From contig JAHDVS010000003.1 in assembly GCA_023382435.1 (NCBI GenBank), forward strand, positions 1-64,000: a DNA stretch of 64,000 bases, in the 5' to 3' direction. Source of the stretch: Thermoleophilia bacterium. GTDB taxonomy: Bacteria; Actinomycetota; Thermoleophilia; Gaiellales; Gaiellaceae. Under the pieces are notes generated by a model. The model was not told the DNA's origin and ran no database searches. It saw only the letters and a program-made list of their open reading frames with translations. How positions within the stretch are numbered: position 1 is the stretch's first letter; every line of letters begins with the position of its first letter. Position numbers and translations under genes: made by a program. This document shows, in pieces, positions 8,924-36,343 of this stretch.

Positions 8924-9636
8924 GGCAGCCCGAACCCCGCGGCCTCGAGCGCGGCGCGCCCTTCCGGCCCGAGCAGCCGGTCGACGAACGCCTCGGCCGC
9001 CTCCCGGCTGTCGCTGTCGGTGACGACCGCGACGGCATACTCGATCGCCGGCTGGGCCGCGGGCGGCAGCTCGAGCACCCGCACGGCCGCCCCCGCCGGC
9101 GCCACGTTGGTGACGTAGACGATGCCGGCGTCCGCCTCGCCGAGCACGACCTTGGCGACGATGCCGCCGACGTCGTCCTCCTCGCTGACGACGTTGTCGA
9201 GCACATCCGAGGCGCCGAGCGCCGCGAGCGCGGCCCGGGCGTAGTCGCCCACCGGGACGCCCTCCGCCCCGACGACGAGCTTGACGCCCGGCCGGGCGAG
9301 GTCGGCCACTGAGGCGAGCTCGGACACGGAGGGGACGATCACCGCCAGGCGGTTCGTCGCGAACACGCGCGGCTCCTCGACGAGCCCTTCCTCGCGGAGC
9401 GCGCGCGCGTGCTCGACGCTCGCGGCGGCGAACACGTCGGCAGCCGCGCCCTCGCGGATCTGGGTAGCGAGGCTCGCGGAGCCCCCGAGCTGGTAGGTGG
9501 CGTCCGGCTCGAACGCCGGCAGCGCCTCCGCGAGCGACGCCGCGGCGAAGACCGTGAGCCTGGCGTCGCCGCCCGCCCCACCGCAGCCCGCGGCCAGCGC
9601 CGCCAGAGCGCCGAGGAGCACGCCGAGCCTCCTCAC
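8920..9636 (-). CDS. modA: Molybdate-binding lipoprotein ModA
   Basis: This is the extracytoplasmic substrate-binding protein of the importer. The N-terminal signal ends in a lipobox LAALAAGC, so the mature protein is membrane-anchored. LTVFAAASLAEALPAF is the characteristic ModA opening, followed by the second ligand loop GGSASLATQI. The length of 238 aa is usual. It overlaps the regulator gene by 4 bp (ATGA) and modB by 4 bp. Tungstate specificity cannot be excluded. Confidence 0.88.
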   Translation of the reverse strand: MRRLGVLLGALAALAAGCGGAGGDARLTVFAAASLAEALPAFEPDATYQLGGSASLATQIREGAAADVFAAASVEHARALREEGLVEEPRVFATNRLAVIVPSVSELASVADLARPGVKLVVGAEGVPVGDYARAALAALGASDVLDNVVSEEDDVGGIVAKVVLGEADAGIVYVTNVAPAGAAVRVLELPPAAQPAIEYAVAVVTDSDSREAAEAFVDRLLGPEGRAALEAAGFGLP

Positions 9637-33771: not shown

Positions 33772-35097
33772 CTAGCCGTGCGGCCGCGCCATCGCGCGGT
33801 AGTCGAGCGCCCGGTCGAGCACGTCGTCTGCGACGCCCCGCTCGCGCGCGACCTCGCGCAGCGAGCGACCCGAGGCGGACGCCACCTTCACGATCTCCGC
33901 GGCGGCGTCGTAGCCGATGTAGGGGTTGAGCGCCGTGGCGGCCGAAAGCGTCAGCTCGGCGTAGCGCTCGCACTGCTCCCGGTTCGCCTCGATCCCGTCG
34001 ACGCACTTCTCCGCGAGCAGCCGGGAGGCGCTTGCAAGCAGCCCGATCGACTGGAGCAGATTGCGAGCCATCAGAGGCACGAACACGTTCAGCTCGAAAT
34101 GACCCTGCATGCCCCCCACCGCGATCGCCTGGTCGTTCCCGATCACCTGCGCCGCGACCTGGGTCACGACCTCCGGGATCACCGGGTTGACTTTTCCGGG
34201 CATGATCGAGCTGCCCTTCTGGAGCTCAGGGAGGAACAGCTCGGCGAGCCCCGCCCTCGGCCCTGATCCCATCAGACGGAGATCGTTGGCGATCTTCGTC
34301 AGCGAGACGGCAACGACCTTGAGAGCGCCCGACGCCTCGACGAGCCCGTCGCGGGCGGCCTGCGCCTCGAACGGGTCGGCGGGCGGATTGATCGCGAGGC
34401 CCGACCCCCGCGCGAGCAGACCGCGTACCCGGACCGCAAACTCGGGATGCGTGTTCAGGCCGGTGCCGGTCGCGGTGCCGCCGAGCGGGATCTGGCCGAG
34501 GCGTCCGAGCATCGACTCGAGGCGGGCCGCCCCCTCGCGCACCTGGGCCGCATAGCCCGAGAGCTCCTGCCCCAGCGTCACCGGCACCGCGTCCATCAGG
34601 TGCGTGCGCCCGGACTTGACGACGTCGGCGAACTCGGTTGCCTTGCCGGCCAGCGAGGCCTCGAGCTGCCGCAGCGCCGGCAGCAGATCGCCGACGACAT
34701 CGTGGAGGGCGGCCAGGTGCACGGCCGACGGGAAGACGTCGTTCGAGGACTGGCCCATGTTGACGTGGTCGTTCGGATGCACGCCCTCGCCCGCGAGCGT
34801 CGCGATTACCTCGTTGGCGTTCATGTTCGAAGACGTGCCCGAGCCGGTCTGGAAGACGTCGATCGGGAACTGGTCGTCGAACTCGCCCGCGGCGACGCGG
34901 TCGGCCGCGGCCGCGATCCGGTCGGCCAGCTCGCGGTCGAGCAGCCCGAGCTCGGCGTTCACGCGGGCGGCGGCAGCCTTGATCCGCGCGAGCCAGCGCG
35001 CGACGGAGACGGGGATCGGCTCCCCCGAGACGGGAAAATTGGCGATCGCCTTGCGCGTCTCGCCGCCCCAGAGCTCCTGCCGCTCGCTCGCAGCCAC
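33772..35097 (-). CDS. fumC: Class II fumarate hydratase
   Basis: FumC interconverts fumarate and malate in the TCA cycle. GSGTSSNMNANEVI, HPNDHVNMGQSSND, GRTHLMDAVPVTLGQE and the signature GSSIMPGKVNPV identify a class II fumarase; the last distinguishes it from aspartase only weakly. I take GTG 35097 (441 aa), since the extra upstream residues do not resemble the family and TAGACT lies 8 nt before it. Convergent with lipA. Confidence 0.9.
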   Translation of the reverse strand: MAASERQELWGGETRKAIANFPVSGEPIPVSVARWLARIKAAAARVNAELGLLDRELADRIAAAADRVAAGEFDDQFPIDVFQTGSGTSSNMNANEVIATLAGEGVHPNDHVNMGQSSNDVFPSAVHLAALHDVVGDLLPALRQLEASLAGKATEFADVVKSGRTHLMDAVPVTLGQELSGYAAQVREGAARLESMLGRLGQIPLGGTATGTGLNTHPEFAVRVRGLLARGSGLAINPPADPFEAQAARDGLVEASGALKVVAVSLTKIANDLRLMGSGPRAGLAELFLPELQKGSSIMPGKVNPVIPEVVTQVAAQVIGNDQAIAVGGMQGHFELNVFVPLMARNLLQSIGLLASASRLLAEKCVDGIEANREQCERYAELTLSAATALNPYIGYDAAAEIVKVASASGRSLREVARERGVADDVLDRALDYRAMARPHG

Positions 35098-35111
35098 GGA
35101 TCGTGAGTCTA
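35098..35111 (-). promoter_or_regulatory. -10 element TAGACT, 8 nt before fumC
   Basis: TAGACT (35111-35106) with spacer CACGATCC leads to GTG 35097. The 70-bp gap to the divergent regulator gene contains no other clear promoter. Confidence 0.4.
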
Positions 35112-35167
35112 GCCGGGCGGCGGAGTTGCGCGGCGAGGCAGCGTGCGCGACGATTGACCTGGAAGCG

Positions 35168-36343
35168 ATGCTTGAAGACACCGTCGTCGCCACAACCGGG
35201 ATTCCGGAGCTCGATCTCGCGCTCGGCGGGCTCTACTGGGGCGACAACGTCGTGTGGGAGATCGAGGGATCCGGCACGGCGGAGCCGTTCTTCCGCGCCG
35301 CCGTCACCCGGGCGGGCACGTATGACACTGCCGCGTACGTGACCGTGACACGCTCGCCCGACGAGGTGCGGGCCGTCTTCCCCGGCCTCGACGTGCTCGA
35401 CGCCCGGCCCGGCTCGCCGCTCGCGGCCGCCGACCCCCTGATCCGCGAGATGCGCTCGCGCTGCAAGGCATTCGAGCGAGATCTGCTCCTGTTCGACCCC
35501 CTCGACGCGATCGCCGAGCAGTGGGGCGCGGACTGCGCCCAGCACTTCTTCACGCGCGGCTGCCCGATGCTGCTCGAGCTCGGTGCCATCGCCTACTGGT
35601 CGCTCGCGGCCGGGAGCTACCCGCTCGCGCTCCGGCGCGAGATCGAGGAGGTTACCCAGTGCGTCTTCGCGGTAGCCGACGGGCGAGTGCGCATCGCGAA
35701 GGCGGAAGGCAGGCCGTTCGGCGTCCAGGGCACCGTGTTTCGCTACGAGCTCGAGGGCGATACCGTGAGCCTCGCTCCCGCGCCAGCAGCCGCGCGCCTG
35801 GGGGGGGCCCTGCGCTCGATCCGTCTCCAGCGCCACCTCTCGCAGAGCGAGTTGGCGCGGCTTGCAGGCGTCTCGCCGAGCGCCGTCTCCCAGGCCGAGC
35901 GGGGCCAGCGCGGCCTCTCGCTCGAGACGCTGCTCGATCTGACCTCGAGGCTCGGCATCACACTCGACGAGCTCCTGCGCGGCGAGGTCGCCCCCGGCTA
36001 CCGTCTCGCCCGTCGTCACGATCCGCCGCGCCGGACCTCGGACGGCAAGCCGGTGGCGCTGCTCGACGATCCGCAGACGGGTCTGCGCTGCTACCTCATC
36101 CGACTGCCGGTGAAGGGAACCTCGGAGCTCGGCTTCACGCACAAGGGCATCGAGCTGATCGCCGTCGCCAGCGGCCTCGTCCAGGTCGTGCTGGCGACCG
36201 GTCGGCCGGTCCTGCGCCAGGGGGAGGCCCTGCTCGCGGAGCGCAGCGGCATCTCTGCCGTGCGCAACCTCTCCGACTCCGAGGCGGTTGTCTTCTGGGT
36301 CCTGCGCGACGAGCCCGCCCGGCCCGAGGCCGCACCGGTCTGA
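35168..36343 (+). CDS. Fusion regulator: degenerate KaiC/RecA-like domain, XRE helix-turn-helix, cupin
   Basis: The 391-aa protein has three parts. Residues ~8-200 follow the KaiC/RadA layout: TTGIPELDLALGG at the start, a Walker B-like strand DLLLFDPLDAI, and VFAVADGRVRIAKAEGRPFG near the end. The P-loop, however, reads EIEGSGTAEPFF, lacking the Lys-Thr/Ser needed for ATP. Residues ~212-268 are a XRE HTH (LSQSELARLAGVSPSAVSQA). Residues ~285-385 form a cupin (GKPVALLDD to EAVVFWVLRD). XRE-cupin regulators are common, but this N-terminal addition is not one I know. ATG 35168 is the start closest to the TTGIP block. It is divergent from fumC. Ligand and targets are unknown. Confidence 0.75.
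   Translation: MLEDTVVATTGIPELDLALGGLYWGDNVVWEIEGSGTAEPFFRAAVTRAGTYDTAAYVTVTRSPDEVRAVFPGLDVLDARPGSPLAAADPLIREMRSRCKAFERDLLLFDPLDAIAEQWGADCAQHFFTRGCPMLLELGAIAYWSLAAGSYPLALRREIEEVTQCVFAVADGRVRIAKAEGRPFGVQGTVFRYELEGDTVSLAPAPAAARLGGALRSIRLQRHLSQSELARLAGVSPSAVSQAERGQRGLSLETLLDLTSRLGITLDELLRGEVAPGYRLARRHDPPRRTSDGKPVALLDDPQTGLRCYLIRLPVKGTSELGFTHKGIELIAVASGLVQVVLATGRPVLRQGEALLAERSGISAVRNLSDSEAVVFWVLRDEPARPEAAPV

Follow-up and report, generated by a model that had tools for sequence, protein, structure and literature searches.

A gene for a three-part regulator lies on the forward strand of the window, by which we mean the whole 64-kb stretch of DNA that was analysed. A preliminary description of this DNA had read its 391-residue product as a KaiC/RecA-like domain followed by an XRE helix-turn-helix (HTH) and a cupin, and this reading was confirmed, with TTGIPELD, GSGTAEPFF, DLLLFDP and VRIAKAEGR all found in place. 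Because there are 14 full-length three-part homologues at 36–60% identity, from Actinomycetota and including two genomes of the window's own family and several of its order and class, the regulator is a real, conserved gene. The extra N-terminal domain (N-domain) was present in every member and sets the family apart from ordinary two-domain XRE-cupin proteins. The gene is patchily distributed: with a limit of E 1e-15, the N-domain turned up in 21 of the 399 genomes searched in the class, and in 2 of those 21 it belongs to a long PPDK-type protein. No homologue was found among the PLSDB plasmids at 1e-20, and a promoter and terminator scan at the regulator locus found nothing.

Table 1. Features of the regulator locus, in window positions.
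Feature	Position	Strand	Basis or remark
Divergent intergenic region, fumC/regulator	35098..35167	.	fumC on the minus strand, with a putative GTG start at 35097
Putative operator AAGCGATGCTT (AGC-N3-GCT), centred on the start codon	35163..35173	.	Conservation upstream of homologues
Three-domain regulator (dead KaiC-like domain, XRE HTH, cupin)	35168..36343	+	Open reading frame (ATG at 35168, stop ends at 36343); 14 full-length homologues
GDN-type inactivated KaiC/RadA-type RecA-fold domain, residues 1-203	35168..35776	+	AF2 models, KaiC top matches, RadA profile match
G25-D26-N27-V28-V29 motif, before the lost P-loop	35240..35254	+	G25, D26, N27 and V29 invariant in 40/40
EGSGTAEPFF, degenerate P-loop position	35264..35293	+	Sequence and length vary among relatives
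LLLFDP, Walker B-like strand	35483..35500	+	D110 position acidic in 39/40
KAEGR (178-182), conserved late strand	35699..35713	+	Homologue alignments
XRE/Cro-type HTH, residues 210-270	35795..35977	+	HTH_3 6e-15, HTH_31 9.2e-10
Cupin, residues ~301-381	36068..36310	+	Cupin_2 5.9e-4 (below Pfam cut-off), 1y9q matches

The C-terminal half of the protein is that of a familiar type of transcription factor. The Pfam HTH_3 match covers residues 215–269, and an XRE HTH was found in 15 of 15 members. Cupin_2 matched residues 311–378 of the window protein and was matched in 12 of the 15 members, with a best E value of 3.1e-7. The family profile aligns to the HTH-cupin protein 1y9q, to which there is also a fold match (E 1.1e-11); the C-terminal domain is a cupin. 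Throughout the family this cupin is without the usual set of metal ligands, the first motif having at most one His and the second reading WRN.

The fold of the N-domain was examined with AlphaFold2 models built on a seven-sequence alignment, for which the mean pLDDT was 82 over the whole protein and 85 over residues 1–203. When the N-domain model was searched against the PDB with Foldseek, KaiC came first (E 2e-10; TM 0.74, normalised by query length), and FlaH and further KaiC structures ranked behind it. The full-length model had the HTH-cupin 1y9q as its top match, and also matched KaiC, FlaH and sso2452. Residues 1–203 of the window protein alone gave no sequence match in Pfam, NCBIfam or the PDB, and a family profile was needed. 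This profile matched RadA/Sms by sequence at E values of about 1e-5 to 1e-4 per genome, in an alignment that brings the Walker B strands together and sets the RadA loop GEPGVGKST opposite a variable segment. Weak matches pointed in the same direction, namely to NCBIfam PRK09302 (KaiC; 0.011), to FlaH 4yds (0.06) and to Pfam DUF7504 (PF24336), which three relatives matched with a best E value of 2.8e-4. DUF7504 had no match in the window protein and none in the class at the curated cut-off or gathering score, and Haloferax volcanii was the one genome among 14 controls to match it. Two PDB matches of the N-domain profile, AvrPib and TRPV2, were short and partial, with E values of 0.07 or worse, and were rejected. 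The N-domain is a RecA fold of the KaiC/RadA branch, as had been proposed, and no other fold outranked it.

The ATPase site of this domain has been lost. Among 44 domains compared, four from RadA and 40 others from XRE-cupin proteins and a smaller PPDK-type set, the Walker A motif GxxxxGK(S/T) was present in 4 of 4 RadA domains versus 0 of 40 family domains. A tree split the family from intact RadA/KaiC with a support of 100, and grouped the PPDK-type members together, also with a support of 100; because the tree separates the 40 domains from RadA/KaiC, the loss of Walker A is ancestral to the family. The loss of the Walker A lysine, noted in the preliminary description, is conserved together with the HTH-cupin fusion, an intact GKT/S being found in none of the fused homologues. 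The preliminary reading of GSG as the P-loop held only in part: the loop is degenerate, but relatives drop the glycines and vary the loop length, so that GSG is an accident of the window sequence, and the family signature, GDN, precedes it. No conserved pair of catalytic glutamates was found after strand 2, where, as mapped by the RadA alignment, the window reads VTVTRSP. Seven residues (G25, D26, N27, V29, C132, P133 and Q164) are identical in all 40 domains. As judged from these alignments, conservation is shifted rather than vanished, with GDN-x-V, CP and Q replacing the ATPase motifs as the signature of the family. Because the family keeps these invariant residues of its own, the N-domain appears to be a constrained pseudo-ATPase and not part of a decaying gene, and the conserved set GDN, CP and Q offers targets for tests in place of the lost ATPase site. 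In one relative (L010:6150-6330) an in-frame tandem repeat insertion, made of GSVQGIGAASPIQAEATA units, lies within the dead KaiC domain.

From the missing motifs we infer that the N-domain binds no nucleotide. The alternative is that it binds a nucleotide or nucleotide-like ligand at a non-canonical site made of GDN and the Walker B acid, and that it serves as an energy or nucleotide sensor. The acid is kept in 39 of 40 domains, G-D-N stands beside the former P-loop in all 40, and a related domain is joined to PPDK_N, an AMP/ATP-binding module; however, with Walker A absent throughout, a replacement segment of varying length and KaiC-type catalytic glutamates that are not conserved, we judge such a sensor to be improbable. 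The fused proteins, of about 870 residues, occur in other Actinomycetota; a GDN-type dead KaiC domain heads them, and the middle part matches PPDK_N (E 1.9e-44). These PEP-synthase-like proteins were found at L094:9027-11639 and L095:9276-11885, and also in L053, L056, L061, L062, L067 and L070. Pfam and NCBIfam gave no KaiC-like annotation for their N-terminal part. That a PEP-synthase-like enzyme carries this domain too is a hint that the enzyme and the regulator share a signal. The broader proposal, that the GDN domain had a single origin in Bacteria as a dedicated sensory module, independent of nucleotides, and was attached to two unlike outputs, the XRE-cupin repressor and the PPDK_N enzyme, to both of which it reports the same kind of signal, we hold to be rather doubtful.

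The intergenic region between fumC and the regulator had been put forward as the place for binding assays. It does hold a likely operator, as predicted from conservation, but the putative site extends beyond it, over the start codon. A palindrome, AGC-N3-GCT, is present upstream of 11 of 15 homologues, where 1.17 were expected from dinucleotide shuffles (interval −160 to +20), and it is centred on the start codon in the window and in several relatives. The motif was first spotted by eye, so that this discovery count is post hoc; it was therefore tested on loci not used for its definition. Among 11 such held-out loci, from which two duplicates of L009 and L011 had been removed and four of which had been inspected earlier, after the motif was fixed, seven had the palindrome, against about 0.65 expected. 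The window site is itself weak, scoring 7 of 12 against the full consensus, and is not significant alone, so that its support comes from conservation; MAGCNNTGCTK has one other match in the 64 kb. Six of the seven genes with a start-codon site have CTT as their second codon (L016, among the genes checked, has a GTG start), although only 4% of the remaining Leu codons in these genes are CTT, which argues that the DNA rather than the protein is under constraint; the binomial value is indicative only, because the genes are related. A perfect ACAGCANTGCTGT occurs once each in the L006 and L008 genomes, in the gap between a universal-stress-protein (USP)-like gene and the regulator, and relatives often have a second site 50–150 bp upstream. 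Members of the L017-L020 branch and several distant relatives, among all of which some start codons are uncertain, do not have the AGC-N3-GCT core. In one distant homologue without the core (L096, about 9175–9225), the start is closely preceded by a longer inverted repeat, TGCTTAATGC...GCATTAAGCA, which is possibly a variant operator. A genome-wide scan with the consensus, allowing one mismatch, gave no clear excess over a reversed control pattern, and we therefore make no regulon prediction. The placing of the palindrome across the start codon of the regulator implies autoregulation, and the predicted site makes the regulator family directly testable.

The position of the gene suggests another target. 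It is divergent from fumC, with which it shares a region of 70 bp; the presumed fumC start has the putative operator some 65 bp upstream of it, and XRE-cupin factors commonly regulate their neighbours (PMC7901475). The protein might then regulate fumC and central carbon metabolism, and the preliminary description had taken central carbon flux as a possible signal. However, fumC, lipA, fprA and nuo genes were near the regulator in 0 of 23 homologue loci (a few of them on short contigs), and the site, lying on the regulator's start codon, is better placed for autoregulation. Because fumC is in none of these loci and relatives adjoin USP or nitrogen genes, the central-carbon idea is unsupported, and we consider control of fumC unlikely.

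USP-like genes adjoin or are near the regulator in L006, L007, L008, L010, L081 and L082; of the USP calls, that in L081 is confirmed by Pfam, one in L086 is marginal, and the rest were read from sequence. Genes for type III glutamine synthetase, permease, ammonium transporter and sarcosine oxidase are near the regulator in L006 and L084-L087, some of these assignments being matches below the curated cut-off. Convergent with the regulator at L081:8716-9407 and L082:8229-9420 are runs of small related genes (about 115–135 aa, with MSPKVNxxQ-like starts). At L084:8134-11727 the regulator is followed by glutamine-synthetase-like, class II amidotransferase and FwdC-like genes, in an arrangement that resembles an N-methylglutamate-type cluster. 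The family might on this account be a regulator of nitrogen or methylated-amine metabolism, acting in trans in the window genome, where a type III glutamine synthetase is encoded on another contig (615 bits, over the cut-off). Relatives near the synthetase, an amino acid permease, the ammonium transporter, sarcosine oxidase or a class II amidotransferase speak for such a role, but the association comes from five loci, of which three (L085-L087) belong to a single branch, and close relatives more commonly have USP as the neighbour; we regard a nitrogen role as somewhat unlikely.

In sum, the protein probably binds DNA to regulate its own gene, most likely as a local repressor, with an ATP-dead KaiC/RadA-type N-domain and a start-codon operator. 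A dimer of the XRE HTH would bind (A/C)AGC-N3-GCT(T/G) where it overlaps the regulator's own start codon and would block the regulator's own transcription; in many relatives, transcription of the divergent neighbour would probably be blocked as well. The N-domain, which would have ceased to bind and hydrolyse ATP in the ancestor shared by the whole family while keeping GDN, CP, TQ and KAExR, is most likely a nucleotide-independent module for assembly or for binding a partner or ligand, and the metal-less cupin is likely to be a small-molecule pocket.

Both inactivated KaiC domains and XRE-cupin regulators have been described before, and their combination appears to be undescribed. In the incomplete literature covered, no paper dealt with a KaiC-XRE-cupin fusion, which is weak evidence of novelty, and none mentioned DUF7504. 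The AGC-N3-GCT palindrome upstream of most homologues, as a candidate operator, would also be new here. Like KaiC, RadA and FlaH (ArlH), the family has the fold and strand order, the (S/T)TGIxELDxxLGG start, a Walker B-like acid and the late KAEGR strand; unlike them, it is without Walker A and conserved catalytic glutamates, and has GDN, CP and TQ as invariant or near-invariant residues instead. XRE regulators often autoregulate via palindromes (PMC12565409), and the Pseudomonas XRE-cupin factors bind palindromic sites beside their own genes and repress neighbours (PMC7901475). The window protein resembles PsdR, PauR and ErfA of that group in having an XRE HTH followed by a cupin and, going by sequence conservation, a putative palindromic site beside its own gene; it differs in the pseudo-ATPase of about 200 residues in front, in the placing of the putative operator over the start codon and in a cupin without the usual metal ligands. 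Inactivated KaiC domains (iKaiC) are reported in archaeal signalling proteins (PMC5847659, with credit there to Makarova et al. 2017 mBio). The likeness is one of an inactivated KaiC-like domain serving as a signalling module in fusions, a parallel in kind, ancestry aside, whereas the domains studied here are from Actinomycetota and are fused to an XRE HTH and cupin or to PPDK_N. The comparison carries the idea of signalling by inactivated KaiC domains from archaea to a bacterial transcription-factor family.
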